Below, in pieces: positions 7,523 through 24,781 of a DNA stretch of 64,000 nucleotides. The notes below the pieces were generated by a model. That model was given only the letters and a program-made list of their open reading frames with translations, had not been told where the DNA came from and ran no database searches. Positions within the stretch are counted from its first letter, which is position 1. Every line of letters starts with the position of its first letter. The translations under genes and the position numbers were made by a program. The DNA is from Phycisphaeraceae bacterium (lineage in GTDB: Bacteria > Planctomycetota > Phycisphaerae > Phycisphaerales > UBA1924), in NCBI GenBank assembly GCA_019636655.1, contig JAHBXB010000002.1, forward strand, positions 818,537-882,536, given 5' to 3'.

Positions 7523-7533
7523 GAAAGGTGACC

Positions 7534-10119
7534 ATGGCCAAGTGTGAGATGGTGATTAACTACGTGCCCGGCGACGAGTGCCGGGTCGCGGTTCTTGAAG
7601 ACGGCGTGCTGGAAGAGTTCCACCTGGAGCGCGCCGACGCGGTGAGCCACGTCGGCAACATCTATCTGGGCACGGTGGTGAACGTCGAGCCGGCGATCCA
7701 GGCGGCGTTCGTCGACTTCGGGCTCGACTCGTCGGGGTTCCTGCACGTCTCGGACCTGCACCCCCGCTACTTCCCCGGCGAGGACTCCGAGACGACCGAG
7801 ATGGTCGGCAAGAAGACGCCGCGGCGCGAACGCCCGCCGATCCAGCAGTGCCTCCGGCGCGGGCAGGAGATCGCGGTGCAGGTGCTGAAGGAGGGCGTCG
7901 GCACCAAGGGCCCGACGGTCACCTCGTACCTCTCGATCCCCGGCCGCTTCCTGGTGATGATGCCCCTGATGGACAAGGTGGGGGTGTCGCGGAAGGTCGA
8001 GGACGAGGACACGCGCCGCCAGATGCGGGAGATCCTTGACCAGCTCGACCTTCCCGAGGGCTTCGGCTTCATCCTCCGCACCGCCGGCCTGGAACGGACC
8101 AAGGCGGAACTCAAGCGGGACCTGGCCTACCTGCTGCGCCTGTGGCGGGACATGGAGAAACGCTGGAAGCAGGGCGCCCGGCCCCGCCTGCTCTACAGCG
8201 AGTCGGACCTGCTCGTCCGCGCCCTGCGCGACATGCTCTCCGGGGAGATCGACCGGATCATCATCGACAACGAGGCCGCGCTGAACCGCGCGGCGAGGTT
8301 CCTCAAGATCGTCGCCCCCCGGTCCGCCGCCAACCTGGTGCACTACACCGGCAAGACCCCGGTCTTCCACGCCATGGGCGTCGAGCCGCAGATCCACACG
8401 ATCCACTCGCGCGAGGTGCCCCTCAAATCCGGCGGCCGGCTCGTGATCGACGAGACCGAGGCTCTGGTCGCGATCGACGTGAACTCGGGCAAGTCGCGCG
8501 AGGCCCGCGACGCCGAGACGAACGCCTACGAGACCAACCTCGAGGCGGTCGACGAGATCTGCCGCCAGCTCCGCCTGCGCGACGTCGGCGGCATCATCGT
8601 CAACGACCTCATCGATATGCGATCGGCCAAGCACCGGCGCGACGTCGAGACGCGGATGAAGGACAACCTCAAGAAGGACCGCGCCCGCACCACCCTCGCG
8701 CCCATCTCCCCGTTCGGGATCCTGGAGATGACGCGCCAGCGGATGCGCGGCAGCCAGGAGAGCCAGCACTTTGCCGACTGCCCCGTCTGCCGCGGGCGGG
8801 GCCTGGTGCAGAAGCCCGACTCGGTCGCCGACGATGCGATCCGCGAACTGGCGACCGTGCTGCAGAACAGCCGCGTGCACCGCGTCGAGATGGTCGTCGC
8901 CCCGCGTCTGGCGGGCGAACTGCTCTCCGACAAGCGGCACACGCTCTCGCGCCTGGAACGCACCGCGGGGAAGAACGTGCACGTGCGGGTCTCCGAGGCG
9001 ATCCCGGTCGACCGCATCTCGTTCTACGCCTACGACGACCGCGGCGCGGACATCGATGTCGCCCGCCTGCCGGCGCCCAAGGCCAACACCGAGGATCTCG
9101 TTCCGTTTGTCGACACCACCCAGCCCGGCCAGGACTGGGCCGTGGACACCGAGGAGGAGGCCAAGGCGGTCGCGGCGAGCGAGGCCGCCGAGGAGCCCGC
9201 AGCGCCGGAGGACACCGGCCCGGACTTCCTCTCCTCCGACGACTCCGACAGCACCGACGACATCACCAACCCTGCCGAACTGGCCGGCTCCCCCGCGAGC
9301 AAGCGACGCCGACGACGACGCGGGCGCGGCGGCCGCGACCGCGCTCAGGACTCCGAAGGCCAGGGTCGGGGAGAGGCGCAGGAGCAGGGCAGCGGCCAGC
9401 GACGCTCGGGCCGTTCTTCCAACGGCGACGACCGGCGATCCCGGCCGGATGCCGACGCGCCCTCACGATCCTCCCGCGGCGAAGAGGGCGAGCAGCCTCC
9501 CGCACACGCCGACGCCGCGGGTGAATCCGCTCCCGAAAGCGATGGCGAGGGTGGGCGGCGCCGACGACGCCGGCGCCGACGACGCGGCGGGCGCGGCCGC
9601 GGCGAACAGGGCGGCGCCGAGAACGGCCAGCCGGCCGAGGGCGAGGCCACCGAAGCAGCGCCGGAGGCCTCGCCGGATTCCAGCGTTCACGCGCACGCCC
9701 GCGGCGGAACCTATGAGATCCTGGGCACACCAGAGGGCGGCGCGGAGAGTGAGCCACCAGCAGCCGAGCCCGGCGGCGACGATCCCGAATCCGCCGAGCA
9801 CCCCGACACGGCCGAGGGCGGCGCCCCCGGCGAGCAAGGAGAAGGCGCCGGGCGGCGGCGGCGGCGGCGGCGCCGACGCGGCCGCGGCGGTCGTGGCGGC
9901 GGCGGATCGGGCGAGGGTGAAGGAAACGGCGGCGGCGGGAATGCCGGCGGCCAGGGCGAGGCCCCGAGGCCGCGCCAGCAGCAACAGCAGCGCCGCGAAC
10001 CGGATCGCCCGCCAGCGCCCCCGGCCTCGGCGCCGCCCAAGCCGGCCCTGCCGCGCACGCTCTATGCCTTCCGCCGCAAGCTCTCCCCGAGCGAACGGGC
10101 CAGGATCAAGCCGGAGTGA
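7534..10119 (+). CDS. rne: Ribonuclease E/G family endoribonuclease with long Arg/Gly-rich tail
   Basis: Endonuclease for mRNA decay and rRNA processing. S1 RNA-binding domain at about residues 35-130 (VGNIYLGTVVNVEPAIQAAF), then the RNase-H-like catalytic part with the metal-binding Asp residues in EALVAIDVNSG (about 313) and NDLIDM (about 357). The zinc-link CPVCRGRG is at about 416. The catalytic half ends near residue 520. The rest (about 340 residues) is disordered, with acidic Ala/Glu stretches broken by three Arg runs and Arg/Gly-Gly blocks, likely an RNA-binding or degradosome scaffold. The tail is not homologous in detail to that of E. coli RNase E. The ATG at 7534 is preferred over GTG 7528, which overlaps the Shine-Dalgarno. 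It lies 51 nt before dxr. Confidence 0.92.
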   Translation: MAKCEMVINYVPGDECRVAVLEDGVLEEFHLERADAVSHVGNIYLGTVVNVEPAIQAAFVDFGLDSSGFLHVSDLHPRYFPGEDSETTEMVGKKTPRRERPPIQQCLRRGQEIAVQVLKEGVGTKGPTVTSYLSIPGRFLVMMPLMDKVGVSRKVEDEDTRRQMREILDQLDLPEGFGFILRTAGLERTKAELKRDLAYLLRLWRDMEKRWKQGARPRLLYSESDLLVRALRDMLSGEIDRIIIDNEAALNRAARFLKIVAPRSAANLVHYTGKTPVFHAMGVEPQIHTIHSREVPLKSGGRLVIDETEALVAIDVNSGKSREARDAETNAYETNLEAVDEICRQLRLRDVGGIIVNDLIDMRSAKHRRDVETRMKDNLKKDRARTTLAPISPFGILEMTRQRMRGSQESQHFADCPVCRGRGLVQKPDSVADDAIRELATVLQNSRVHRVEMVVAPRLAGELLSDKRHTLSRLERTAGKNVHVRVSEAIPVDRISFYAYDDRGADIDVARLPAPKANTEDLVPFVDTTQPGQDWAVDTEEEAKAVAASEAAEEPAAPEDTGPDFLSSDDSDSTDDITNPAELAGSPASKRRRRRRGRGGRDRAQDSEGQGRGEAQEQGSGQRRSGRSSNGDDRRSRPDADAPSRSSRGEEGEQPPAHADAAGESAPESDGEGGRRRRRRRRRRGGRGRGEQGGAENGQPAEGEATEAAPEASPDSSVHAHARGGTYEILGTPEGGAESEPPAAEPGGDDPESAEHPDTAEGGAPGEQGEGAGRRRRRRRRRGRGGRGGGGSGEGEGNGGGGNAGGQGEAPRPRQQQQQRREPDRPPAPPASAPPKPALPRTLYAFRRKLSPSERARIKPE

Positions 10120-10170: not shown

Positions 10171-11385
10171 ATGCCATCGGGTGACCCCAACGAGTGCCGC
10201 GTGATCCTGCTCGGATCGACGGGGTCGATCGGGACGCAGACGCTCGACGTGATCGAGCACCTCAATCGCCTGCACGAGCAGCGGCTGTATCCCATGCGCT
10301 TCCGCGTCGTCGGCCTCGCCGCCGGCCGCAACGGCGCGGCGCTGGCGGACCAGGCCAGGAGGTTCGATTCCGCCGCGATCGCCCTCGCCGACGAGAACGC
10401 GGACGACTGCCCGCCGCGGGCGATGCGCGGCGGCGACTCGGCCCTGCGCCTCGTGCAGAGCGTGGAGTGCGATGTCGTGCTCGCCGCGATGGTGGGCGCG
10501 GCGGGCCTCCCGGCCACGCTGGAGGCCGCGCGCCTGGGGCGGAACATCGCCCTGGCGAACAAGGAGACGCTGGTCGCCGCCGGGGAGCTCGTCGTGCCGG
10601 CCGCCGTGGAATCCGGCTCGCGGCTGCTGCCGGTGGATTCCGAGCACGCCGCGCTGTGGCAGTGCCTGCAGGGGCTCTCTCCGGACGGCGGGGCGTCGGC
10701 GTGCCCGCCGCTCGCCGAGCCCCCGGCCATCGCACGGGCCGTGATCACCGCCTCGGGCGGTTCATTCCGCACGTGGACTCGCGAGGAGACCTACCACGCG
10801 ACCGTGGAGCAGGCCCTCAAGCACCCGACGTGGTCGATGGGGCCGAAGGTCACGATCGATTCGGCCTCGCTCACCAACAAAGCCCTGGAGGTGATCGAGG
10901 CCCACTGGCTCTTCAACCTCCCTGGGGAGAAGATCGGGGTCCTCGTCCACCCGCAGTCGATCGTCCACGCCATGGTCGAGCACCACGACGGCTCGATCAT
11001 TGCCCAGCTCGCCGCACCGGACATGCGCAACCCGATCCAGTACGCCCTGACGTGGCCGCACCGCCCGCCCGGCGTCGCCCGCCGCATGGATTTCAGGGCG
11101 TTTGCCTCGCTGGAGTTCAGCGAGCCCGACACCGACCGCTTCCCCGCGCTGAAACTCGCCTACCAGGTCATCGAACGCGGCGGCACCACCGGCGCCACCT
11201 TCAACGCCGCCAACGAGGCGGCCGTCGAAGCGTTCCTCGCGCGGCGCATCCCCTTTGGCCGCATCCCCGAACTCTCCGGGCAGGCCCTGCTCGACCTCGG
11301 CTCCTCGCCCGTTCGCGACCTCGCCGACGTCCAGGCCGCGGACCGCGAGGCGCGGCGCTACGTCGCCTCGAAACTCGGGGCCTGA
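10171..11385 (+). CDS. dxr: 1-deoxy-D-xylulose 5-phosphate reductoisomerase
   Basis: NADPH-dependent second step of the MEP isoprenoid pathway, converting DXP to 2-C-methyl-erythritol 4-phosphate. Features: NADPH-binding GSTGSIG near residues 15-21, ANKETLVAAGELV, the metal/substrate motif PVDSEHAALWQCL, the flexible loop ASGGSFR...HPTWSMGPKVTIDSASLTNK, and EVIEAHWLF with HPQSIVHAMVE. Its 404 residues match the family. The ATG follows AAGGA. It is probably transcribed with the upstream RNase gene. The usual partner rseP is not next to it; a glycosyltransferase array follows 116 nt later. Confidence 0.96.
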   Translation: MPSGDPNECRVILLGSTGSIGTQTLDVIEHLNRLHEQRLYPMRFRVVGLAAGRNGAALADQARRFDSAAIALADENADDCPPRAMRGGDSALRLVQSVECDVVLAAMVGAAGLPATLEAARLGRNIALANKETLVAAGELVVPAAVESGSRLLPVDSEHAALWQCLQGLSPDGGASACPPLAEPPAIARAVITASGGSFRTWTREETYHATVEQALKHPTWSMGPKVTIDSASLTNKALEVIEAHWLFNLPGEKIGVLVHPQSIVHAMVEHHDGSIIAQLAAPDMRNPIQYALTWPHRPPGVARRMDFRAFASLEFSEPDTDRFPALKLAYQVIERGGTTGATFNAANEAAVEAFLARRIPFGRIPELSGQALLDLGSSPVRDLADVQAADREARRYVASKLGA

Positions 11386-11501: not shown

Positions 11502-13307
11502 ATGGCTGACGCCGCGTCCATCGCGACCCAGGCCCGCGGCATGGCCGCGACCGGCCGCGTGGACCAGGCCCGCGCCCTCCTCGCCCGCGCGCTGGCCAAG
11601 CAGGGCGGCAACGCCGAGCTCAACCTTGCGATGAGCGCGGTATGCCTCGCCGCCGGCCAGCGCGACCAGGCCGCGTTCTACTCGGACCGCGCCGCCAAGG
11701 CCCGGCCGGACAACGCCCCGACCCTGCTCGAACACGCCGGGGTGCTGATCGCCGCCTCCCGCCTCGCCGATGCGGAGGCCGCTTATGCCCGCGCCGTCGC
11801 CCTCGCGCCCCGCCACCCGCAGGCCCTGGCAAACTACGCCGCGTGCCTGGTGCTGCGCGAGAAGTACGCCACCGCGATGGCCCAGTGCCGCGCCGCCGCC
11901 CGGGCCGGCCTGGAGCACCCCAACCTCACGGCGACGCACGCCTCGGCCCTCCGCTGCATGGGGCTCGTCGAGGAGGCCGTCGGCGTGATCCGCGACGGCG
12001 CCCGCCGGTGGCCCGACGACCTCACGCTCGCCGAGGCGCACGCCACCGTGCTCAACTACGTGCCCGACGCGGAGCTGCCCGAACTGCTCGCGGCGCACAA
12101 GCGCTGGGCCATGATGGTGGAGCGCGCCGCTCTGGCCCAGGGCGGACGCCTTCCCGAGGTCGTCCTCTCCGCCGCCGACGCCGGGCGCGGGCTGCGCGTC
12201 GGCGCGATGTCGCCGGACTTCCGCGAGCACGCCGTGGTCTCGTTCTGCGAGGCCGTGCTCACGCACCTCCCGCGCGACCGCTTCGAGGTCACCGCCTACT
12301 TCACCACCAACACCCACGACCACGAGAGCGACCGCCTCGCCCGTCTCGTCGACCGTTGGCGCGAGTGCGGCTCTCTCGACAACCGCGCCCTCGCCAAGCA
12401 GATCCGCGCCGACGGCATCGACATCCTCATCGAACTCAGCGGCCTCACCCGCGGCCAGCGACTCGGCGCCGTCGCCCTCCGCCCCGCCCCGGTCCAGGTG
12501 ACCTACATCGGCTACCCCAACACCACCGGCCTCGCCGCGATCGACTGGCGGCTCATCGACGCCCACACCGACCCGCCGGGCGCCGAACGCTGGTGCGTCG
12601 AGCGTCTCGCCCGTCTTGACCCCTGCTTCCTCTGCTACACCGCGCCGCAGAGCACCCCCGCGGAGTTCTCCCGCATCGACGACGGCGACGACACGATCGT
12701 CTTCGGATCGTTCAACAACCTCCAGAAGATCACCAGCCGCGTCATGGCCGTCTGGGCGAGCCTCCTCAAGGAGGTCCCGCGATCCCGGCTCATGCTCAAG
12801 AGCCCCGGGCTGCGCGAGGAGGAGGTCCGCTCCGAGGTGCTCGCCCGCTTCGAGCACCTCGGCGTCGATCGCTCCCGCATCGAGACTATGCCCCCCACCG
12901 ATCGCATCGCCGACCACCTCCAGCAGTATCGCCGCATGGACATCGCCCTCGACACCTTCCCCTACAACGGCACCACGACCACCGGCGAGGCCCTGTACAT
13001 GAGCGTCCCTGTCGTCACGCTCGAGGGCGTCGGCCACCCGGCCCGCGTCGGCGAGAGCATGCTCCGGGCCGCCGGGCTCCCGGAACTCGTCGCCGCCGAC
13101 GAGGCCGGCTACGTCCGCGTCGCCGCGGCCCTCGCGGCGGACCGCCCACGACTCGCCGACCTGCGGGCCAATCTCCGGGACCGCGTCCGCCGCAGCCCCC
13201 TCTGCGATGGCCCCCGATACGGCGCCCAGCTCGGTGCCGCCCTGGAAAAGATGTGGGCCCAGCGCTGCGAGACCCCCCCGCCGCCACCCCACGGGGACAT
13301 CGCGTGA
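11502..13307 (+). CDS. TPR / GT41 SPINDLY-like O-glycosyltransferase, module 1
   Basis: Member of the COG3914 SPY/O-GlcNAc-transferase group. About 200 N-terminal residues are TPR-like helical pairs (for example ADAEAAYARAVALAPRHPQALANYAACL). The GT-B catalytic part follows, with MSPDFREHAV at about residue 236 (the His position matches the conserved catalytic-region His of GT41), GYPNTTG at about 337, FGSFNNLQK with the nucleotide-contacting Lys, and the sugar-nucleotide signature DTFPYNGTTTT at about 484. There is no signal peptide, so it is cytosolic. It is first of four adjacent paralogues and overlaps the next gene by 4 nt (GTGA), implying translational coupling. The donor sugar and the target proteins cannot be read from sequence. 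Confidence 0.88.
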   Translation: MADAASIATQARGMAATGRVDQARALLARALAKQGGNAELNLAMSAVCLAAGQRDQAAFYSDRAAKARPDNAPTLLEHAGVLIAASRLADAEAAYARAVALAPRHPQALANYAACLVLREKYATAMAQCRAAARAGLEHPNLTATHASALRCMGLVEEAVGVIRDGARRWPDDLTLAEAHATVLNYVPDAELPELLAAHKRWAMMVERAALAQGGRLPEVVLSAADAGRGLRVGAMSPDFREHAVVSFCEAVLTHLPRDRFEVTAYFTTNTHDHESDRLARLVDRWRECGSLDNRALAKQIRADGIDILIELSGLTRGQRLGAVALRPAPVQVTYIGYPNTTGLAAIDWRLIDAHTDPPGAERWCVERLARLDPCFLCYTAPQSTPAEFSRIDDGDDTIVFGSFNNLQKITSRVMAVWASLLKEVPRSRLMLKSPGLREEEVRSEVLARFEHLGVDRSRIETMPPTDRIADHLQQYRRMDIALDTFPYNGTTTTGEALYMSVPVVTLEGVGHPARVGESMLRAAGLPELVAADEAGYVRVAAALAADRPRLADLRANLRDRVRRSPLCDGPRYGAQLGAALEKMWAQRCETPPPPPHGDIA

Positions 13308-15085
13308 GCCGCGCCAGCATCAACCCCGCGGCGATCGATGCGATGCTCCGCGCCGGGCAGGCGGAGGCCGCGCGGGCCCAGCTCGCCCGCCACCTCCAGC
13401 GCCACCCGGCTGACGCCGACGCCGCCGCGATGATGAGCGGCGCCCTCGCACGGCTCAAGCAGGAGCAGCAGGCCGCGTTCTACGCCCAGCGCGCCGTCGA
13501 GATCGCGGGCAACGACCCCGCCCGCCTCGTCGGCGTCGGCGCCATCCTCGCCGGCCTGCGACGCACCGCCGATGCCGCGGTCGCCTACCAGCGAGCCGCC
13601 CGCGCACGCCCGCAGGATCTTGATATCCGTCTCGCGCTGCTCAACCACCTCTACCTCACCGGCGCCCTGGCCGATGCCGCCTCGAGCGCCGAGCAGGCCC
13701 AGGGCGAGATCGACCGGCCCCAGATCCCCCTCCTGCGTTCCTTCGCCCTCTCCGCCATGGGCCGCGCCGACGAGGCCGAGCGCGTCCTCGCCGAATCACT
13801 CGCCCGATTCCCGGGCGACCAGCCCCTCACGACCGCTCGCGCGGCGAACGCGAACTACTGCGAGCACCTCGCCGCTCCCGAGGTCTTCCAGCGACACGCG
13901 GACTACGGCCGGCTCCTGCAGACCGCCCACCCCACAACGCCACCCCCGTTCCGCAACAGCCGCGAGCCCGATCGTCGCCTGCGCATCGGCATCGTCTCGG
14001 CCGACCTTAGGACGCACTCGATCACGTTCTACATCGAGGCCTTCATGCGGCACGCCGACCGCGCAGCGGTCGAGATCGTCTGCTACTCCACGCTCAACGT
14101 CGAGGACTCCATCACCGCCCGCCTGAAGACCTATGCCTCTCTCTGGCGCGACGCCTCGTCCATGAACGACCGCGAACTCGCCGAGCAGATGCGCCGCGAC
14201 AACATCGACATCGCCCTCGACCTCATGGGCCACTGCTACCGCCACTCGCTCCGCGCCTTTCACCTCCACGCCGCCCCGGTCCAGGCCTCCTACATGGGCT
14301 ACCCCAACACCACGGGCGTCCCCGCCGTCGACGCCCGCATCGTCGACTCCCTCACCGACCCGCCCGGCGCCGAGGCCCTCGCCACCGAGCGGCTCATCCG
14401 CATCGACCCCTGTTTCCTCTGCTACACGCCGCCCCCCGCGGCCCCGCCCGTCTCCGATCGGCCCGGCGATGCGCCGGTCGTCTTCGGCTCGTTCAACAAC
14501 CTCGCGAAGATCGGCGACCGCGCGATCGCCCTGTGGACCCGCGTGCTCGACGCTGTCCCCGCCTCACGCCTGGTCATCAAAAACCTCTCGCTCCGCGACG
14601 CCGGTGTCCGCGAGATGCTCCGCGAGCGCCTCGCCGGCCACGGCGTGCCAATGGACCGCCTCGAACTCCTCGAACCCCCCGAGATCGTCGAGGACCACCT
14701 CAAGGTCTACTCGCAGGTCGATATTGCCCTCGACACCTTCCCCTACAACGGCACCACCACCACCTGCGAAGCCCTGTGGATGGGCGTCCCCGTCGTCGCG
14801 CTCGAAGGCCCGCCGGCCCCCGATGGGGGCCACGCCGGCCGCGTCGGGCTCACCCTCCTGAGCGCCGTCGGCCGGCGCGAGTGGGTCGGCGCAACCCCCG
14901 ACGACTACGCCGCCATCGCCGCGGCCCTCGCCTCCGACCGCGGCTCGCTCGCCTCGATCCGCCGATCGCTCCGCGCCCAGGTCGCCGCCAGCGTGCTCTG
15001 CGACGGCCCCGCCTTCGCCCAGCGGTTCAGCGGCGCCCTCCGTGCCCTGTGGCGAGACTGGTGCGCCGGCCCGCCCCAATCATGA
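13304..15085 (+). CDS. TPR / GT41 SPINDLY-like O-glycosyltransferase, module 2
   Basis: 593 residues with the same layout as its neighbours: TPR helices to about residue 200, then the GT-B domain. It is the most divergent at the first catalytic motif, reading SADLRTHS at about 232 instead of SPDFRxH, though the His is kept. GYPNTTG (about 332), FGSFNNLAK and DTFPYNGTTTT (about 477) are intact. The GTG start at 13304 overlaps the previous stop (GTGA) and has GGGGAC upstream; the open frame extends 51 nt further 5' but that part only shadows gene 1. The substitution may reflect a different acceptor. Confidence 0.87.
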   Translation: MSRASINPAAIDAMLRAGQAEAARAQLARHLQRHPADADAAAMMSGALARLKQEQQAAFYAQRAVEIAGNDPARLVGVGAILAGLRRTADAAVAYQRAARARPQDLDIRLALLNHLYLTGALADAASSAEQAQGEIDRPQIPLLRSFALSAMGRADEAERVLAESLARFPGDQPLTTARAANANYCEHLAAPEVFQRHADYGRLLQTAHPTTPPPFRNSREPDRRLRIGIVSADLRTHSITFYIEAFMRHADRAAVEIVCYSTLNVEDSITARLKTYASLWRDASSMNDRELAEQMRRDNIDIALDLMGHCYRHSLRAFHLHAAPVQASYMGYPNTTGVPAVDARIVDSLTDPPGAEALATERLIRIDPCFLCYTPPPAAPPVSDRPGDAPVVFGSFNNLAKIGDRAIALWTRVLDAVPASRLVIKNLSLRDAGVREMLRERLAGHGVPMDRLELLEPPEIVEDHLKVYSQVDIALDTFPYNGTTTTCEALWMGVPVVALEGPPAPDGGHAGRVGLTLLSAVGRREWVGATPDDYAAIAAALASDRGSLASIRRSLRAQVAASVLCDGPAFAQRFSGALRALWRDWCAGPPQS

Positions 15086-15105
15086 TGAGGTAGGCTTACC
15101 CGACG

Positions 15106-18100
15106 ATGGACCAGACCCGTGAAAGGCTCCGATCCGCCGAAGACCTCGCGCGCCAGGGCCGGCTCGCCGAGGCGAGGTCCATGGCCGCCGAGATCCTCCG
15201 CGCCCACCCCGCGAACGCCGACGCCCACTGCCTCCTCTGCTTCATCCTCACCAAGCTTGGCGACTACCCCGCCGCCATCTCCCACATCCGCGAGGCCCTC
15301 GCCCACGCCCCCGACGACGCCAACTACCTCTCCAACCTCGGCAAACTCCTGCTGCTCACCAGCGACAAGCCCCAGGCCGAGCAGGTCCTCCGCCGCACCC
15401 TCTCACTCCAGCCCGCCAGCGTCAACGCCAGCATCGACCTCGGTCACCTCCTCGAGGGTCTGCGCCGCTACGCCGACCAGCGCGAGGCCCTCCGCCGCGG
15501 CCTTGTCTACAACCCCAACCACCCGCTGCTCACTTCCAACTACGCCCTGGGCGCCATCGCCATGGGCGATGTCGACCACGCCGTCCGCGTCCTCCGGCGC
15601 TGCGCCACGGAAAACCCCGACCACCTGAACGTCGCCACCTCCCTCGCCAGCGCCCTCAACTACGCCGCCGGCGTCCCGCGCGAAGAACTCTTCGCCGCCC
15701 ACACCCGCATCGGCGCCCTCTCCGACCGCTACGTCCGCGGCACCCTTGGCCCATTCTCCAACGATCGCACCCCGGACCGCCGCATCCGTCTCGGCTTGGT
15801 CTCACCGGACTTCCGCGAGCATTCCGTCGCCCACTTCGTCGAGCCGCTCCTGGCGAACCTCGACCGCTCCGACCCTGGCGGCTTCGAGGTCTTCTGCTAC
15901 GACACCCTCGCCCGACGCGACTCAACTACCGACCGCCTGGAGCGCCTCGCCGACCACTGGCGCGATGCCTCCACCATCGGCGACCTGGACCTGGCCACCT
16001 CCATCCGGCGCGACGGCGTCGACGTCCTTGTCGACCTCGCGGGCCTCACCCTCGGCAACCGCCTCCCCGCGTTCCACGTCCGTGCCGCCCCGGTCCAGGT
16101 CACCTGGTGCGGCTACCCGAACACCACCGGCCTGCGGGAGATGGACTACCGCATCGTCGATGCCACCACCGACCCCGCGGGCAGCGAGCCGTGGTCCGTC
16201 GAGTCGCTCCTGCGCCTCGACCCTTGCTTCCTCTGCTTCCGCCCCCCCACCCAGGCCCCCGAGCCCGCCTCGCCGCCCCCCGACCTCCCGCCGACGTTCG
16301 TCTCCTTCAACGCGCTCCAGAAGATGAACGACCACGTCGTGGACCTCTGGGCACGCCTGCTCGACCGCGTCCCCGGCTCGCGCCTCCTGCTCAAGAACCT
16401 CGCCCTCAAGGACTCCCCCGTCCGCGAAGCCACCCTCGCCCGCTTCGTGCGTGCCGGCGTCTCCCCCGACCGGCTCGAACTCATCGGCTGGACCGACTCG
16501 CTCGCCGACCACCTCGCCCTCTACTCCCGCGCCCACGTCGCCCTCGACACCTTCCCCTACAACGGCACCACCACCACCTGCGAGGCCCTCTGGATGGGCG
16601 TCCCCGTCGTCACGCTCCGCGGCGACCGCCACGCGGGCCGCGTCGGCGAGAGCCTCCTGCTCGCCGCGGGCGCCCCCGCCGGCGATAACCCGCTCGGCTG
16701 GCTCGTCGCCGACACCGAAGAGGCATACCTCCAGATCGCCGCGGACCTCGCGACCGACCGCGCCCGCCTGAAGTCGCTCCGCGCCTCACTCCGCGCCGCG
16801 ATGCAGTCATCACCCCTGCGGGATGAAGCCGGCTTCGCCGCCCGCTTCGGCGCCGCGCTCCGCAGCGCCTGGCACGCCTGGTGCGCCGGCACGCAGCGCG
16901 TCCTTCCCCCCGGCCCACCTGCCCCATCCCCGCGCCCCGCGCCCCCGCCGTCGCGCCCGGAGATCAGCGCCGCTCTCCGCGACGCCCAGGCGAGCATCAA
17001 CTCCGGCCGATTCGATGCCGCGAAGGCAACGCTGCTGCGCGCCGCCCAGCGATTCCCGAAGGAAGGAGCGCTGCTCAACTCCCTCTCGGGCCTCCTGCTG
17101 CACATGGGCGAATCCGGCCCCGCCCTGTACTACGCCGAGCAGGGCGTCGCCCTCTTCCCCGATGACCCCGGCCTGCTCGCGACCCTTGGCCACGCCTTCA
17201 CGCTCACCGGCAAAGGCGAACGGGCCATCGCCACGCTCCGGCGCGCCGTCGCGCTCGACCCCGGACTCCCCGAAGCCGCCGGCGCTCTCGTGGAACTCCT
17301 CCTCCTTTCGTCCTCCCCCGCCAGCGCCGCCCGTGTCTGCCGGCACGCGCTCGACGCCCACAACGGCCCCGGCCACCGCGAACTCACGATCGCATACGCC
17401 ACGGCGCTGCTCGCCACCGGACGCCCCGCCGCCGCGCGGGCCCGCCTCCGCCCCATCGCCGATGCGAGCCACGCCGACCCCAAGACCATGGAGATCTGGG
17501 CCTCGACGCTCAACTACGACCCCACGGCCACCGCCGAAGAAAAAGCCGGCGCCCACTTCCAGTTCGGTGAGTCGCTCACGAACGCCCTCGCGGGCATCCG
17601 CATGCCCCCGCCGCCGGCGCCCAAGCCCGCCGACGCCGCGCGCCGCCTCCGCATCGGCCTCCTCTCCCCCGACTTCCGCGCCCACGCCGTCGCCACCTTC
17701 ATCGAGCCCTGGCTCACCCACCACGACCGCGAGCAGTTCGAGATCACCTGCTACTCCAGCGGCGGCGCCGAGGACGACGTCACCGCGCGATTCAAGAAAC
17801 TCGCCGCGCGGTGGCGCCCCGCGACCGAGCCCGACCACGCCGCCCTCGCCCGCAGGATCCGCGCCGACGGCATCGACATCCTCTTCGAACTCAGCGGCCT
17901 GACCCAGCTCAACCGCCTCGCCTCCATCGCCCTCCGCGCGGCGCCAATGCAGATCTCCGCGATCGGCTACCCCAACACCACCGGCCTGCGCCAGGTCGAC
18001 TACCGCCTCGTCGATTCCCTCACCGACCCCGCCGGCGCCGAACTGCTGCACACCGAGCGGCTGCTCCGCCTCGATCCCTGCTTCACCTGCTTCCGGCCGC

Positions 18101-18753
18101 CGGATTCCCCGCCCGACGTCGCCGACCGCTCCGCCGCCGGAGCGGTGGTCTTCGGCTGCTTCGGCTCCATGCTCAAGATCAACGACCAGATGGTCCGCCT
18201 CTGGTCCCGCGTGCTCGAGGCCACGCCCGGCTCCCGCCTGCTCATCAAGAACCACGCCCTCTCCGAGCCCGCGATGCGCGACGAACTCGCCGAACGGTTC
18301 GAGATGCTCGGCGTGGGCCGCGACCGCCTCTCCCTGGTTCCCCCCGCCCCGGGCTACTCCGGCCACCTCGCGGCGTACTCCGAGGTGGACATCGCCCTCG
18401 ACACCTTCCCCTACAACGGCACCACCACCACCTGCGAGGCCTCCCTCATGGGCGTCCCGACGGTCACCCTCGTGGGCGACGTCCACGCCGCCCGCGTCGG
18501 CCTCACCCTGCTCGCCTCCCTGCGACAGCGCGACCTCGCGGCGGCCAGCGAAGACCAGTACATCGCGCTCGCATCAGCCCTCGCCGCGGACGGTCCGCGC
18601 CGGGCCGATCTGCGCCGCTCGCTCCGCGGCGCGCTCCTCGCCAGCCCCCTGTGCAACGGCGAGGCCTACTCCAAACGCCTCGAATCGGCCCTGCGGAGCG
18701 CCTGGGCCGAGCTGTGCGGATCCACGGTGCAGCCATGCCCTCCCCACGCGTAG
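15106..18753 (+). CDS. Tandem-fused double TPR-GT41 glycosyltransferase, modules 3 and 4
   Basis: 1215 residues holding two complete SPINDLY-like units. Unit A has TPRs at about 1-200, SPDFREHSV near 232, GYPNTTG near 336 and DTFPYNGTTTT near 481. A Pro-rich linker of about 15-20 residues follows around 600-616. Unit B has TPRs at about 625-820, SPDFRAHAV near 855, GYPNTTG near 955 and DTFPYNGTTTT near 1099. Unit B reads FGCFGSMLK where the others read FxSFNxLxK, so one nucleotide-pocket residue differs. No stop or frameshift interrupts the join, so it is a true fusion. It starts 20 nt after module 2 and overlaps the next gene by 19 nt. Confidence 0.88.
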   Translation: MDQTRERLRSAEDLARQGRLAEARSMAAEILRAHPANADAHCLLCFILTKLGDYPAAISHIREALAHAPDDANYLSNLGKLLLLTSDKPQAEQVLRRTLSLQPASVNASIDLGHLLEGLRRYADQREALRRGLVYNPNHPLLTSNYALGAIAMGDVDHAVRVLRRCATENPDHLNVATSLASALNYAAGVPREELFAAHTRIGALSDRYVRGTLGPFSNDRTPDRRIRLGLVSPDFREHSVAHFVEPLLANLDRSDPGGFEVFCYDTLARRDSTTDRLERLADHWRDASTIGDLDLATSIRRDGVDVLVDLAGLTLGNRLPAFHVRAAPVQVTWCGYPNTTGLREMDYRIVDATTDPAGSEPWSVESLLRLDPCFLCFRPPTQAPEPASPPPDLPPTFVSFNALQKMNDHVVDLWARLLDRVPGSRLLLKNLALKDSPVREATLARFVRAGVSPDRLELIGWTDSLADHLALYSRAHVALDTFPYNGTTTTCEALWMGVPVVTLRGDRHAGRVGESLLLAAGAPAGDNPLGWLVADTEEAYLQIAADLATDRARLKSLRASLRAAMQSSPLRDEAGFAARFGAALRSAWHAWCAGTQRVLPPGPPAPSPRPAPPPSRPEISAALRDAQASINSGRFDAAKATLLRAAQRFPKEGALLNSLSGLLLHMGESGPALYYAEQGVALFPDDPGLLATLGHAFTLTGKGERAIATLRRAVALDPGLPEAAGALVELLLLSSSPASAARVCRHALDAHNGPGHRELTIAYATALLATGRPAAARARLRPIADASHADPKTMEIWASTLNYDPTATAEEKAGAHFQFGESLTNALAGIRMPPPPAPKPADAARRLRIGLLSPDFRAHAVATFIEPWLTHHDREQFEITCYSSGGAEDDVTARFKKLAARWRPATEPDHAALARRIRADGIDILFELSGLTQLNRLASIALRAAPMQISAIGYPNTTGLRQVDYRLVDSLTDPAGAELLHTERLLRLDPCFTCFRPPDSPPDVADRSAAGAVVFGCFGSMLKINDQMVRLWSRVLEATPGSRLLIKNHALSEPAMRDELAERFEMLGVGRDRLSLVPPAPGYSGHLAAYSEVDIALDTFPYNGTTTTCEASLMGVPTVTLVGDVHAARVGLTLLASLRQRDLAAASEDQYIALASALAADGPRRADLRRSLRGALLASPLCNGEAYSKRLESALRSAWAELCGSTVQPCPPHA

Positions 18754-20531
18754 AACAGGCTCTGGCGCAGTTCAACGCCGGCAAGCGCGAGCAGGCGCGG
18801 GCCTCGCTCCTCGCCCTGGTCCAGCGATCGCCGACCGACTTCGCCGCCCAGCGTGCCCTCGCGTGGGTGCTCCTCCAACTCGGCCAGCCCGGTCAGGCCG
18901 CGTTCATCGGCGAGCGCGTCCGCGCCCTGGCCAAGCCCACCCGCGACGACCTCGCCGGGCTCATCGAGATCGGCTGGACCTTCCACGACGGCGGCCGCAG
19001 AGCCGACGGCGAAGCGTGCGCCCGGCGCGCCTGCACGCTCGCCCCCTCCGATCCCGCCGCACTCGAGGCGCTCCTGCTGATGCTCCAGGCCCGCTTTGCC
19101 TACCCCGAGATGGAGGCCCACTGCCGCGCCATGATCGCCGCCACCGGCCCCACGCCCCTCCTCCAGACCCACCTCGCCAACGCCCTCCTTGCCATGGGCG
19201 AGTCCGAGGCCGCGGCTGCCCTCGCCCGTGAAGTCCTCGCCGCAGACCCCGCCAGCGTCGCCGCCGCGCACGCCCTCGCCGCCACCCTCAACTACGTCGA
19301 CAGCGCCACCCCCGACCAGATCCTCGAGTCCCACACCCACTTCGGCCGCCTGCTCACGGCGGGCATCAAGCCCCTTGCCCCACGCCCACCGGGCCCCTCC
19401 GACGCCGATCGCCCCCCGCGCCTCGGCCTGGTCTCCCCCGACTTCCGCGCCCATTCCGTCGCCTCGTTCGTCGAGTCATTCCTGCCGCACCTCAAGGGCC
19501 GCCTCGACGTCGTGTGCTACTACACCGGATTCACCGTCGACGACTCCACCCGCCGCATCGCCGCCGCTGCGGGCCTCTGGCATCACGTCAACACCCTCGG
19601 CGACGCCGACCTCGCCTCGCTCATCCGCGAAGACCGCATCGACGTCCTCATCGACCTCTGCGGCCTCTTCGCCCGCGGCCGCCTCCGCGTCTTCCAGATG
19701 CGCCCCGCCCCGGTGCAGGCGACCTACATCGGATACCCCAACACCACCGGGCTCACCGCCATCGACTACCGCCTCGTCGATTCCCACACCGACCCGCCCG
19801 GCTCCGAGCGTCTCGCGACCGAGTCCCTCCGACGCCTCGATCCCTGCTTCCTCTGCTACGCCCCCCCGGCCAATCCGCCCCCCGTGGAACGCCTCACCAC
19901 CGACGACCCCGGCGGCGTCGTCTTCGGCTCGTTCAACAACCTGCAGAAGTTCACCGACTCCACTCTCGCGATGTGGAGCCGCGTGATCGCCGCCGTCCCG
20001 GGCTCCCGGCTCCTTCTGAAAAACAACGCCTTCACTGATGAGAGCGTCCGCGCCCGCATCCGCGCGGCCCTCGACCGGCACGGCCTCCGCCTCGAGAGCA
20101 TCGAGATCCTCGGCCGCATCGACGATCCCATGCAGCACCTGACCGCCTACCGCCGAATCGACATCGCCCTCGACACCTTCCCCTACAACGGCACCACCAC
20201 CACCTGCGAGGCCCTGCTGATGGGCGTCCCCGTCGTCACCCTCGCCGGCGACCGCCACGCCGCCCGCGTCGGCGTCAGCCTCCTCGCGGCCGTCGGTCTC
20301 GACTCCCTCGTCGCCGCCACCCCCGATCAGTTCGTCGCCATCGCGACCGCTCTCGCCGCCGACACCGACCGCCGCCGCGCCTTCCGCAGCTCCCTCCGCC
20401 CCACTCTCCTCGCCTCCCCGCTCTGCGACGCCGCCGGCTTCGCCCGCCGGTTCGAAGAGGCCGTCACGGCGATGTGGCGCCAGGCCGTCGCCGCCCGCGC
20501 CCCGGCGGCGGCCCCGCCCAGCCCCCAATAG
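18735..20531 (+). CDS. TPR / GT41 SPINDLY-like O-glycosyltransferase, module 5
   Basis: 598 residues; last of the array. TPR-like helices (MPSPRVEQALAQFNAGKREQARAS onward) lead into the catalytic domain: SPDFRAHSV about 234, GYPNTTG about 333, FGSFNNLQK, DTFPYNGTTTT about 480. The ATG at 18735 lies inside the 3' end of the preceding gene. The frame is open far upstream only because of GC bias; those residues are Arg/Pro-rich and not homologous. A strong hairpin terminator follows four nt after the stop, closing the transcription unit. Confidence 0.88.
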   Translation: MPSPRVEQALAQFNAGKREQARASLLALVQRSPTDFAAQRALAWVLLQLGQPGQAAFIGERVRALAKPTRDDLAGLIEIGWTFHDGGRRADGEACARRACTLAPSDPAALEALLLMLQARFAYPEMEAHCRAMIAATGPTPLLQTHLANALLAMGESEAAAALAREVLAADPASVAAAHALAATLNYVDSATPDQILESHTHFGRLLTAGIKPLAPRPPGPSDADRPPRLGLVSPDFRAHSVASFVESFLPHLKGRLDVVCYYTGFTVDDSTRRIAAAAGLWHHVNTLGDADLASLIREDRIDVLIDLCGLFARGRLRVFQMRPAPVQATYIGYPNTTGLTAIDYRLVDSHTDPPGSERLATESLRRLDPCFLCYAPPANPPPVERLTTDDPGGVVFGSFNNLQKFTDSTLAMWSRVIAAVPGSRLLLKNNAFTDESVRARIRAALDRHGLRLESIEILGRIDDPMQHLTAYRRIDIALDTFPYNGTTTTCEALLMGVPVVTLAGDRHAARVGVSLLAAVGLDSLVAATPDQFVAIATALAADTDRRRAFRSSLRPTLLASPLCDAAGFARRFEEAVTAMWRQAVAARAPAAAPPSPQ

Positions 20532-20534
20532 AAA

Positions 20535-20564
20535 ACGGGACGCCCCTTCAAGGGAGCGTCCCGT
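20535..20564. terminator. Hairpin terminator between converging genes
   Basis: ACGGGACGC pairs perfectly with GCGTCCCGT (9 bp) around a 12-nt loop that can itself close as CCCTT/AAGGG. It sits 4 nt after the GT41 array and 45 nt before the end of the converging metalloprotease gene, preceded by an AAAA run that would serve as the U-tract on the minus strand. Probably bidirectional. Confidence 0.8.
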
Positions 20565-20608
20565 CGTCATTCACTCATTCAGCACGCGGCCGACCGCGGC
20601 TTGCGTGC

Positions 20609-23572
20609 CTACTTGTTCAGGTAGTCATCCGGCTGCCTCTCGACCGGGCTCTGCCGCCCTCCGTCGGGCTCGCGGAAGTAGAACCCGCCGAACATCCCGC
20701 CGAAACTCGGCGCGTTGTACACGTACGAGGCCTCCAGCGCCTTGTCGATGCGCACCGCCGCCTCGGCCAGGTGGGCGCTCGTGTATGGATCAATCCGTGA
20801 GGCCCCGTCGCCCTCGTTCACGGACTTGATCTTCCCGCGGATCTCCTTGAGTTTCGCCACCGCAAGGTTCGAGATCGGCTTGCTCGAAGCCCCGTACATC
20901 GTGCCGGGGAAGGTCAGGTCGATCAGCCGGTCCAGGTGCTCGCGCTGCAGGTTCCGCCGCAGCGACGACACCATCGGCTGGCGCGAGGTGAACTTGCCCG
21001 ACGGCTTCGTGTACACCTCCGTCCAGATCGCCGACGACACCGCGTCCATCAGCTCCGGCAGCGTCAGCGCGTCCTGGTCCGCCGGGATCCGGAACTCGTT
21101 GTCGTACACCCGCTTGAGCGTCGTCGGGTTCAGCATCATCGTCAGCACCGACGCCTGAATGCCCATCACGCGGTCGTGCACCGGCCACGTCGCGTCCTCC
21201 ATGATCGAGCCCATGCCGCCGTCGTCCCACCACTTGTCCACGGTCATGTACTTCAGCAGGTCCGCGTTCAGCCCGAACGCCTCGTCTGTGAACGTGTTCT
21301 CGATCAGGAACTTCATCGCCGCCCGCTGCTTCGCCGCGGGGACCACGTCGATCGGGGCGCGGCCGTTCGGGTCGCCCTTCTTGTCGCGGTACACGTGCGC
21401 CCCGCCCACCCAGCGCGACATCATCGCCAGCATCTGGGTCTGCGTGCTCAGCGAGATCGCGTACCCGCGCCGGGCCTTCGACCACGACTGCCCTTCCTTC
21501 ACGAACTTGTCCGTGATCTTCGCCCGCAGCGCCTTCACCAGCTTCATCCGCGACGCCGCGAAGTCCAGTGGGTCCGCCGAGAAGTCGTACCGCTGCGCCA
21601 GCGGGTCGGGCCCGAACGTGTCTTCGTCCGTCCCGAACTGGTGCTCCGGGTCCGCCACCGTCTCCAGCACCTTCTTCGGGTCGCCCGACGTGTAGCCGTA
21701 CTCGATCGCCCAGAAGTCGTACGGGCCGATGTTCGACATGTTGTAGTCGCCCTGGATCGGGCCGTCGTCCATGTTGATGTTCACCGGCGTGTAGTCCATC
21801 ACCGACGTCGTGAACGGCTTCTTCCCCTTGAACTCGTCGGAGTTGATCTGCTTGAGCGTGTACGCCGACGACGCCTTGAAGTTGTGACGCAGCCCCAGCG
21901 TGTGGCCCACCTCGTGCGCCACCAGGTCCGCCAGCGCCGGGCCCACGAACCACTCGGGGATCCCGTCGAGCGTCTCTTCCTTCTCCTTCTCTTTGTCCTT
22001 GTCCTTCTTCTCGTCCTTCTTCGCGTCCTTCGCCTCGGCCTCGTCCTCCGGCGGGTCGTTCAGCATGTCCATGATCATCATGTTCATGCCCATCAGCGCC
22101 ATGTCGTTGGCCTTCCCCTGCGCCGCGAGGCACAGGCCGTTCACCTGCGACACGCGCCCCTTGAGCCCGTCGAACTCCTGCTGGCCCAGCATGTCCTGCG
22201 GCGTCTGCGCCGCCGGGTGCCCGCCGTACCGCACCACCCCGCGCGACGCCCGCTGCGCCAGCAGGTAGTCACGCTCCCCGGGGGGCGCCATCCGCACCCG
22301 CGGGTCCCAGTTCGGATGGCTGTCCAGCCACGCGATCGTCTCAGGCGTGAACGCCTCCATCGCCGTCGACGCCGGGATCAGCTCGTTGGTCGTGTACCAG
22401 AAGTACCGGATCCACCCGTCCGTCAGCACCACGTCCGCGTCCAGGATCTCCCCCGTCAGCGGATTCACGCGCGACGGACCGATCGCCGTCCCCACGTCGT
22501 TCGTCAGCCACCGGATGAAGTTGTACCGCACATCCTCCGGGTCCTTGTCCATGTTCGCGCCGCTCGCCTTGTCCTGGTACCGGACCTCGATCGCGTCGCG
22601 GATCCCGACCTTCTCGAACGCCGCGTTCCAGTAGTCGATCCCCTGCTTCACGTACGCCCGGTACCGCACCGGCACCGTGTGCTCCACGTAGAACACGATG
22701 GGCTCTTTCGGCGGGCTCAGCTTCAACTTCGGGTCCCGCTTCTCCAGGGACCACCGGTTCACATACCGCACCCACTTCTCGTCGTCCCGGAACTTTCCAA
22801 GGTCCCGGTACACCGTCGTGAAGTACCCGATCCGCTCATCCGCCGCCCGCGGCTGGTACCCCGGGGTCCCCTCCATCAGGCTCACCGAGTAGTGGAACTG
22901 CTTCAGCCGCCCGCCCGCCGTCGGTAACTCGTACGAGATCTCCACGTTCTTCGGGAACGCCTTCGCCTCCTTCACCACCGCCAGGTTCGCGTTCGCGCCC
23001 GCGGCCGAGTAGCCGAAGAACTTCTGCGCCTGCCCCGCCATCAGCGCCTTGAGATCGATCACCGGCTGCCCGCTCGGGCCCATGCACACGATCGGCACGT
23101 CCAGCACCACCCGGTCCGTGAACAGCCGCTCCACCCCGGACTTGGACTCCTGGTCCCCCGTCGACCGCGTCGCGATCTCAGGCTCGATCAACGCCAGCCG
23201 CTTGTCGAACCGCTTCCAGTAGCAGTACAACTCCCCCGCCTGCAGCCCCGCGTACGACTCCCCCGATGCCACCGTCAGCGCGATGAAGTGCCGCTGGTTC
23301 TCGAAGCCCCGCGGCAGCTCCGCCAGCATCGAGCCGTCCTTCTCCTTCACCCACAGCGTGTAGAACGACTTCTCCCCGTCCGCCGTCGACACCACCTTGG
23401 TGAAGTCCTTCGACACGTCGGCAAACTTGGGAAACTCCGGCTTCTCCTCCGCCGGGGACTTGGAATCCGGTGCCGGCTGGGCCACCGCAACAGTGAGAGG
23501 CATCGAGATGCAAAGACCTGCCGCGGCAATCAACGCGCACAGGGAGGCGGAAGACCGAACCATGCTGCTCAT
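20609..23572 (-). CDS. Secreted zinc-dependent metalloprotease (DUF4953/DUF5117-type)
   Basis: 987 residues with a signal peptide ending near VAVAQP. The catalytic signature HEVGHTLGLRHNF is at about residue 551, the extended HExxHxxGxxH of metzincin-like zinc peptidases. The upstream region (PRGFENQRHFIALTVASGESYAGLQAG, FTTVYRDLGKF) and the downstream DYTPVNI and YGYTSGD segments fit the DUF5117/DUF4953 architecture found in Bacteroidota and Planctomycetota. A highly charged Lys/Glu/Asp linker lies just before the active site (about 500-530). The ATG at 23572 has GAAGGAG nine nt upstream. The substrate is unknown; it is probably periplasmic or extracellular. Confidence 0.85.
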   Translation of the reverse strand: MSSMVRSSASLCALIAAAGLCISMPLTVAVAQPAPDSKSPAEEKPEFPKFADVSKDFTKVVSTADGEKSFYTLWVKEKDGSMLAELPRGFENQRHFIALTVASGESYAGLQAGELYCYWKRFDKRLALIEPEIATRSTGDQESKSGVERLFTDRVVLDVPIVCMGPSGQPVIDLKALMAGQAQKFFGYSAAGANANLAVVKEAKAFPKNVEISYELPTAGGRLKQFHYSVSLMEGTPGYQPRAADERIGYFTTVYRDLGKFRDDEKWVRYVNRWSLEKRDPKLKLSPPKEPIVFYVEHTVPVRYRAYVKQGIDYWNAAFEKVGIRDAIEVRYQDKASGANMDKDPEDVRYNFIRWLTNDVGTAIGPSRVNPLTGEILDADVVLTDGWIRYFWYTTNELIPASTAMEAFTPETIAWLDSHPNWDPRVRMAPPGERDYLLAQRASRGVVRYGGHPAAQTPQDMLGQQEFDGLKGRVSQVNGLCLAAQGKANDMALMGMNMMIMDMLNDPPEDEAEAKDAKKDEKKDKDKEKEKEETLDGIPEWFVGPALADLVAHEVGHTLGLRHNFKASSAYTLKQINSDEFKGKKPFTTSVMDYTPVNINMDDGPIQGDYNMSNIGPYDFWAIEYGYTSGDPKKVLETVADPEHQFGTDEDTFGPDPLAQRYDFSADPLDFAASRMKLVKALRAKITDKFVKEGQSWSKARRGYAISLSTQTQMLAMMSRWVGGAHVYRDKKGDPNGRAPIDVVPAAKQRAAMKFLIENTFTDEAFGLNADLLKYMTVDKWWDDGGMGSIMEDATWPVHDRVMGIQASVLTMMLNPTTLKRVYDNEFRIPADQDALTLPELMDAVSSAIWTEVYTKPSGKFTSRQPMVSSLRRNLQREHLDRLIDLTFPGTMYGASSKPISNLAVAKLKEIRGKIKSVNEGDGASRIDPYTSAHLAEAAVRIDKALEASYVYNAPSFGGMFGGFYFREPDGGRQSPVERQPDDYLNK

Positions 23573-23827
23573 ACGGACTCCTTCGTAGAAGAATCGTGGA
23601 CGCCATCGGGCCGCCCGGGACAGAACCGCCGCGGGCTGGACCCTGGCCTCATTGCGCAAGCCTCGCCCCGGCTTCATCTTACGAATCCGACACCCGGGGG
23701 TTCTCCGGAGATACCGATCCGGCCCGCGGAAGTTTCACGCCCCCGGCGGCCATGACCCGCCCGCGGCGACCCCGTAGATCGGCCCGCCAGCCCGCCAGAG
23801 GCGAAGATCCGCCCCTCCCCGCACTCC

Positions 23828-24781
23828 CTAAACAGGGTATGGGGCCCGCATCGCCAAGATCAGCACCAACGTGATCGTCGCAAACGCCACGAACGAAAGT
23901 TGGAACGGCCGGTCCCGCATCGCCAGTTCGGTCGGATCGTCGTAGTCCCCCCGCTCCAAGATCACGATGCACCGCAGGAGGCAGTACGTCGCCGGCACCA
24001 TGGTGATCCACAGCAGGTTCACCCCCCCGCCCACCCGCACGCCATCCCACGCCAGCACGTAGTCCGATTCGTGAGCGGTTACATACCCCGCATACGTAAT
24101 CAGCGTCGCAACCCCCGTCACCACCACCATCATCCGCAGCAATTCATCGGTGTACGCCGATTGCACCGCCCGCACCGTCGACGCCGCCTCGGCCGATCCC
24201 ATCGTCCTTCGCTCGCCCAACCGCTTCCCAAACGCCAGGAACATCGCCAGGAACAGCGTGCTGTTCAGCAGCCACGACGACGGCACTACCCCGACCGCCG
24301 CGCACCCGCCGAACACCCGGATCACGAACCCCAGCGACAGCCCCATCACATCCGCCAGCACCACGTGCTTGAGCCACATCGAGTACAGGTTTACGTTCAC
24401 CACGTACGCCACCACCCACAGCCCCACGCCCCACATCGCCTCCGCCGTCGGCAGCATCGCCACCGCGGCCACCGCGCCCACGAGCAGAGCCAGCGCAAAC
24501 CCCGCCGCCTGCCCCGGCGACACCTCGCCCGACGCGATCGGCCTGTTCCGCTTCCGCGGGTGCGACCGGTCCGCCGGCGCATCCAGGATGTCGTTCACCA
24601 CGTACGAGGCGCTCGACACCAGCGCGAACGCCACCGCCGCCAGCCCCGCGGCGAACGCCACCGGCTTCCACGCCCCCGGACGGTCCGCCAGCGACGAATA
24701 CCCGTAGAACGGCCCCACGAGCACGAACGCGCTCTTGGCCCACTGCGTCGGCCGCGCCAGTCGGACAAAGCGACCGATCAC
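23828..24781 (-). CDS. UbiA-family prenyltransferase, decaprenyl-phosphate phosphoribosyltransferase-like
   Basis: 317-residue integral membrane protein with about nine hydrophobic helices. The first Asp-rich motif reads NDILDAPADRSHPRKRNRPIASG, the NDxxDxxxDxxHPxKxxRPIA form typical of Rv3806c/DPPR synthase rather than quinone-type UbiA. In mycobacteria that enzyme attaches phosphoribose to a polyprenyl phosphate to make the arabinose donor for wall glycans. The next minus-strand gene upstream is a GT-C-like membrane protein, so a polyprenyl-sugar route is plausible but unproven; the epimerase and reductase partners are not in this window. Confidence 0.78.
   Translation of the reverse strand: MIGRFVRLARPTQWAKSAFVLVGPFYGYSSLADRPGAWKPVAFAAGLAAVAFALVSSASYVVNDILDAPADRSHPRKRNRPIASGEVSPGQAAGFALALLVGAVAAVAMLPTAEAMWGVGLWVVAYVVNVNLYSMWLKHVVLADVMGLSLGFVIRVFGGCAAVGVVPSSWLLNSTLFLAMFLAFGKRLGERRTMGSAEAASTVRAVQSAYTDELLRMMVVVTGVATLITYAGYVTAHESDYVLAWDGVRVGGGVNLLWITMVPATYCLLRCIVILERGDYDDPTELAMRDRPFQLSFVAFATITLVLILAMRAPYPV

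Follow-up and report, generated by a model that had tools for sequence, protein, structure and literature searches.

A stretch of 64,000 nucleotides from a Phycisphaeraceae bacterium (hereafter the window) carries a string of four head-to-tail genes that encode five modules, each combining a tetratricopeptide repeat (TPR) arm with a GT-B glycosyltransferase domain of family GT41. We call these modules M1, M2, M3a, M3b and M4. M3a and M3b belong to a single gene, M3, whose product is a double enzyme with a Pro-rich linker (Table 1). All four proteins match the GT41 profile PF13844 in both the N- and C-lobes, with 128 to 283 bits against a cut-off of 25 bits, and TPR profiles are matched as well. 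Profile matches and structure models thus agree on the layout given in a preliminary description of this DNA, whose spacings of -4 (M1/M2), +20 (M2/M3) and -19 (M3/M4) nucleotides (nt) are also exact. These features support a single string of genes with five GT41 enzymes, all of them apparently intact. The genome holding the window (G000) has seven GT41 modules: the five of the array and two separate genes at C2:1024290 and C7:5723. In a named sequence collection, the longest match of the M3 double gene is to a Phycisphaerales contig.

Two of the signatures listed for the modules, GYPNTTG and DTFPYNGTTTT, are present in all five, but the third, SPDFRxH, is replaced by SADLRTH in M2. A terminator-like hairpin does occur after M4, as had been described, but it has a T tail on the minus strand only, which suits the convergent protease gene. 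The hairpin fits that gene and could also terminate the array.

SPINDLY (SPY) is a plant protein O-fucosyltransferase that adds fucose to the plant's own cell proteins, and SPINDLY-type proteins are widespread in bacteria. The array modules had been labelled SPINDLY/OGT-like; our results allow the narrower label SPINDLY-type. M1 scores 335 bits against Arabidopsis SPY, 162 against human O-GlcNAc transferase (OGT) and 158 against XcOGT of Xanthomonas campestris, and the corresponding scores of M3b are 299, 144 and 128 bits. The closest solved relative of the array modules is Arabidopsis SPY, not OGT. In a Foldseek search with an AlphaFold2 model of M3b (mean predicted local distance difference test score, or pLDDT, 91.4), the eight top PDB matches are all SPY structures, with template modelling (TM) scores of 0.87-0.90 over ~600 columns. 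The best is Arabidopsis SPY (TM 0.89 over 597 columns), and TtOGT of Thermobaculum terrenum, OGT and XcOGT rank behind these eight. A model of M3 residues 1-1199 contains two TPR plus GT-B units, with residues 598-616 disordered. TPR matches and AlphaFold2 models agree in placing an N-terminal TPR superhelix before two Rossmann-like lobes.

The SPY residues that we compared are those with mutagenesis or structural support in PMC9715652 and PMC10027727. K665 and Y744 are required in SPY (PMC9715652), and the donor-defining positions are K689, A731 and Y744 (PMC10027727). K689 reads the guanine. H495, K665, H728, Y744 and T747-T749 are retained in all five modules, as is K689. Position 689 is Lys in 93, and position 744 Tyr in 96, of the 98 domains compared across the family and order. 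The OGT donor-site set L866/R904/C917 is absent: every module has Lys for Leu at 866 and Tyr for Cys at 917, and none has Arg at the R904 equivalent (SPY position 731). Enzyme class and fold are well supported by these comparisons and models, which put all five modules much nearer SPINDLY than OGT. The SPINDLY-type assignment predicts GDP-fucose as the donor rather than UDP-GlcNAc, and fucose is the likely transferred sugar.

Arabidopsis SPY (PDB 7y4i, 8dtf-8dti) resembles the modules in its TPR, connector and GT-B layout, in a catalytic domain 41-44% identical to theirs and in H495, K665, K689, H728, Y744, T747 and T748. It differs in having 11 TPRs, compared with about five in the array modules, and here five modules are arrayed, two of them in one chain. 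Human and animal OGT, which uses UDP-GlcNAc, shares the GT41 fold and overall TPR-GT-B layout, but reaches only about half of SPY's bit score. XcOGT and TtOGT are bacterial TPR-GT41 proteins of similar size with Tyr at the Y744 position, but their scores are lower (128-158 and 245-252 bits, respectively) and TtOGT lacks the Lys of K689. We know of no report of either as an array. The HMW1C/NGT N-glucosyltransferases, also in GT41, give a weak match of ~30 bits to the C-terminal lobe, but are very distant (NCBIfam NGTferase score 51, cut-off 1000) and use Asn as acceptor and UDP-Glc as donor.

Pairwise identity among the five modules is 47-52% in the catalytic domains and 23-33% in the TPR parts. 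The former value argues that the likeness of the modules is not due to chance, and the far greater divergence of the TPR arms is what would be expected if acceptors differ. All five modules share an exact 32-nt run, GCCCTCGACACCTTCCCCTACAACGGCACCAC, which, as previously noted, occurs at positions 12945, 14726, 16540, 18394 and 20166, exactly five times. It encodes ALDTFPYNGTT, the best-conserved stretch across the modules. C-ending codons are frequent in the array (C3 of 0.69-0.76, versus 0.28-0.52 in the two GT41 domains encoded elsewhere in the genome). Gene conversion was considered as a source of the run and rejected, because the excess of codon identity at shared residues mostly disappears when array codon usage sets the expectation (0.734 observed, 0.678 expected), and a small excess is also present between genomes. 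The run mainly reflects a conserved peptide under strong codon bias, and does not testify to recent copying.

What is new here is the recurrence of a GT41 slot linked to dxr. GT41 is present in 26 of the 61 family and order genomes that we compared. In relatives the order is ptsI-like gene, RNase E/G, dxr, GT41 array, met-zincin protease and UbiA. Conserved synteny, raised as a check in the preliminary description, is found: the dxr-linked slot is filled in 14 genera of the same family by one to six GT41 modules. Directly behind dxr lie five modules in the window, five in G028, six in G031, three in each of G019 and G036, and one in each of G010, G006, G012, G032, G023, G016 and G035. G017 has three modules on the protease side, at a contig end that leaves the dxr side out of view. 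In G168, which was drawn class-wide after the dxr-GT41 rule had been formed, the first of three GT41 genes overlaps dxr by 4 nt and the other flanks differ. The slot is cleanly empty in the GT41-free genomes G005 and G027, where ~170 and ~100 nt, respectively, separate dxr from the protease gene. Double enzymes also occur elsewhere, in the dxr slot of G031 (1112 amino acids) and in G025 (at least 1010 amino acids). Recurrence in related genera indicates that the array is no accident of one genome, and recurrent arrays behind one housekeeping gene suggest a real, unstudied protein-tagging system.

Separately, the last array gene of G028 contig C41 (G028_C41_5; L046 13185-14255) has lost the equivalents of H495, K665, Y744 and T748, and is likely a pseudoenzyme within a slot array.

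Table 1. Features of the array and its surroundings (positions in the window).
Feature	Position	Strand	Remarks
PEP-utilising enzyme (PtsI-like)	5339..7129	+	PF02896, PF05524; conserved upstream context
Rne/Rng family ribonuclease	7528..10119	+	TIGR00757 461 bits; conserved upstream context
dxr (DXP reductoisomerase)	10171..11385	+	TIGR00243 406 bits; 116 nt before M1; conserved upstream neighbour
M1	11502..13307	+	TPR + GT41; catalytic part ~12192-13289; PF13844 158 bits
M2	13304..15085	+	TPR + GT41; GTG start; catalytic part ~13976-15079; PF13844 128 bits
M3	15106..18753	+	1215-amino-acid double enzyme, two complete TPR + GT41 modules; PF13844 four stretches, 283 bits
M3a	15106..16938	+	first M3 module, including linker start
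Pro-rich inter-module linker, M3 residues 598-616	16897..16953	+	sequence TQRVLPPGPPAPSPRPAPPP; pLDDT <50
M3b	16939..18753	+	second M3 module; catalytic part ~17644-18750
M4	18735..20531	+	TPR + GT41; catalytic part ~19416-20528; PF13844 140 bits
Terminator-like hairpin between M4 and convergent protease gene	20534..20565	-	13-pair stem
Met-zincin protease (DUF5117/DUF4953)	20609..23677	-	PF16313 254 bits; convergent downstream border of slot
UbiA-family prenyltransferase	23828..24781	-	PF01040; conserved downstream context
gmd, GDP-mannose 4,6-dehydratase	28726..29805	+	TIGR01472 543 bits, cut-off 415; 496 bits to Arabidopsis GMD 1n7g

Local expansion had been suggested for the array, but our comparisons do not support recent duplication as its source. 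The five modules form a clade in neither of two trees, and in the 99-row tree the sister of M1 is a G003 copy (support 100/86) and the sisters of M4 are copies of G028 and G010 (99/91). Copies in other genera are as close to the modules as the modules are to each other (identities given above), and supply most of their nearest relatives; of 98 modules compared, just 9 find their closest relative within their own locus. The approximately unbiased (AU) test, however, does not reject monophyly of the five (p 0.44, or 0.25 with full-length modules), a result compatible with a common origin. GT41 copies do cluster by genome (65 label changes compared with 78 in shuffles), which implies that some local duplication occurred. 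We also considered that slot occupants represent one orthologous gene, and rejected this since the tree requires 24 label changes, against 27 in shuffles. As judged from these trees, the position of the slot is conserved while its GT41 occupants turn over.

The host genome encodes predicted enzymes for both steps to GDP-L-fucose. The first step is represented by gmd, and a GDP-L-fucose synthase gene lies at G000:C2:887810-888763, ~5.3 kb past the window. In relative G019 a GDP-L-fucose synthase gene follows a same-strand GT41 gene after 51 nt (L087 7592-10393), and in G010 the distance between such genes is ~1.3 kb.

On balance, we favour the interpretation that the array performs SPINDLY-type intracellular O-fucosylation of Ser/Thr, with divergent short TPR arms serving different acceptors. 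One transcript, perhaps starting at or before dxr, would probably carry all five enzymes. The predicted reaction of each GT-B domain is the addition of one sugar, most likely L-fucose donated by GDP-L-fucose, to a Ser or Thr within a flexible part of a cytoplasmic protein or of a protein not yet exported. The short TPR arms (~200 residues) may each pick their own acceptors, and the flexible linker of M3 would tether two modules, which could let a single chain act on two sites or on two partners. We infer enzyme activity from the conserved residues and the models; separate acceptors for each module, and the dedicated O-glycosylation system with several specificities envisaged in the preliminary description, are plausible extensions of this proposal.

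Several points weigh against it. Position 731 is Q, V, L, A and A across the five modules, so that the Ala of SPY is found in two, and the SPY loop of residues 721-723, close to the base, is not kept in the modules. M1 and M3b have Ala in place of S496, a residue whose mutation makes SPY less active, and M3b also has Gly for N661. In an "intermediate" group of prokaryotic GT41 proteins the donor residues are mixed and the donors untested (PMC10027727). The G028 copy without four key residues means that not every GT41 copy need be an enzyme. G042 contains GT41 with neither gmd nor GDP-L-fucose synthase, and GDP-fucose enzymes also serve the nearby surface-polysaccharide genes. Finally, gmd is present in 22 of 22 GT41-positive and 9 of 15 GT41-negative family genomes, but this association (Fisher p 0.002) ignores kinship, and an independent-pairs test that takes relatedness into account has too few contrasts, and hence no power. 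The co-occurrence was accordingly rejected as proof of fucose.

Some of these points suit a different donor. The same fold and protein targets could be combined with UDP-GlcNAc, UDP-glucose or another GDP-6-deoxyhexose, which we regard as possible, if doubtful. Besides the intermediate group and G042, XcOGT shares the Tyr yet was crystallised with UDP-GlcNAc analogues, and dTDP-rhamnose-type genes are also present in the window's genome. However, all five modules combine K689 with Y744, the Lys is absent from TtOGT and human OGT, and SPY is by far the closest solved relative.

The modules might instead act in the cytoplasm on exported surface proteins, such as flagellin, pilins or secreted proteins, before their export, as has been proposed for GT41 genes in bacterial flagellin islands. 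Bacterial GT41 proteins are discussed alongside flagellin modification, the COG3914 members of such islands belonging to the same broad family (PMC4875605), and relative G002 has one GT41 gene ~1 kb from two flagellin genes (L066 3772-10048). We consider this reading unlikely for the array, which has no flagellin gene nearby; in this genome flagellins are encoded on a different contig (C1:945275-947569), a long way from every GT41 gene. Nor does GT41 depend on flagellin across relatives. Flagellin occurs in 56 of the 61 genomes with or without GT41, and G042, G054 and G058 are GT41-positive and flagellin-free. On these grounds flagellin was rejected as a general acceptor.

Another improbable explanation is that the copies are largely redundant, the outcome of a permissive site at which genes come and go, and have no separate acceptors. 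Such a process could account for a slot copy number of 0 to 6 between genera, for the G028 copy that lacks catalytic residues, and for the intact dxr-protease pair of G005 and G027. It sits less easily with a catalytic set kept in all five window copies despite ~50% divergence, with a dxr-GT41 link that survives changed flanks in G168, and with the recurrence of GT41 beside an HSP100/Clp gene and with sulfotransferases. That the array builds or decorates a surface polysaccharide encoded downstream is very unlikely, although the region at 28.7-35 kb does hold gmd, a flippase gene and genes for GT4-type glycosyltransferases. In the characterised proteins named here, a TPR arm joined to GT41 goes with protein acceptors; the slot is linked to dxr rather than to polysaccharide genes, and many GT41 copies of relatives are away from polysaccharide loci.

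In relatives, GT41 is linked to two further contexts. Five genera, among them that of the window (contig C7 of G000), have a ClpC-type HSP100 gene with GT41 immediately after it in the same orientation. The GT41 occupants of these loci (L045 5639-10128; also L057, L094, L049 and L081) again do not form a single orthologous group. A PF00685 sulfotransferase gene is directly behind GT41 in six genera, and G036 has two sulfotransferases (L090 7713-10276, L098 7855-10439, L059 6579-9883, L055 10841-13443, L085 7478-10068 and L091 9582-11462). Seven of the 13 homologues of this sulfotransferase in the 61 genomes occupy such a position; a PF00685 sulfotransferase of the linked type was not found in the window's genome. 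The pairing in relatives suggests a sulfated protein-bound sugar, and hints at a modification that nobody has looked for.

A broader and more speculative proposal, which we think rather unlikely as a whole, is a multi-enzyme bacterial system of intracellular O-fucosylation, in which a fast-changing set of SPINDLY-type enzymes with their own acceptors would occupy fixed positions (dxr, HSP100/Clp) and, in some relatives, a sulfotransferase from the adjoining gene would add sulfate to the protein-bound fucose. If true, bacteria would possess a parallel to the O-fucose signalling of plants and protists, including a GT41 double enzyme and an intracellular O-glycan that carries sulfate; we know neither of these two from the literature. 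The literature searched on GT41 in Planctomycetes and on bacterial SPINDLY activity reports no sugar or target, the main paper on bacterial Spindly relatives lying outside that search. Because genera with one to six enzymes at a fixed site occur naturally in the family alongside array-free genera, the two states can be compared. With five divergent modules in a single host, donor choice and acceptor choice would also become separable by experiment, and the fused M3 raises the question of whether two active sites in one chain cooperate.

Three genomes of family f11 in the same class (G143, G158 and G175) each have 55-65 first-look GT41 candidates, and probably dozens of copies, far above the number in the window's genome. 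At the end of G139 contig C36 (L179), which is mostly N, a GT41 catalytic domain is followed in frame by a part resembling an FkbM-type methyltransferase. A frame of 24,676 amino acids with a GT41 match in G139 was dismissed as an artefact, 72 kb of its bases being read as N. A contig titled Phycisphaerales bacterium palsa_1353 (L118 1-16599) contains about eight GT41 modules in two opposed groups.

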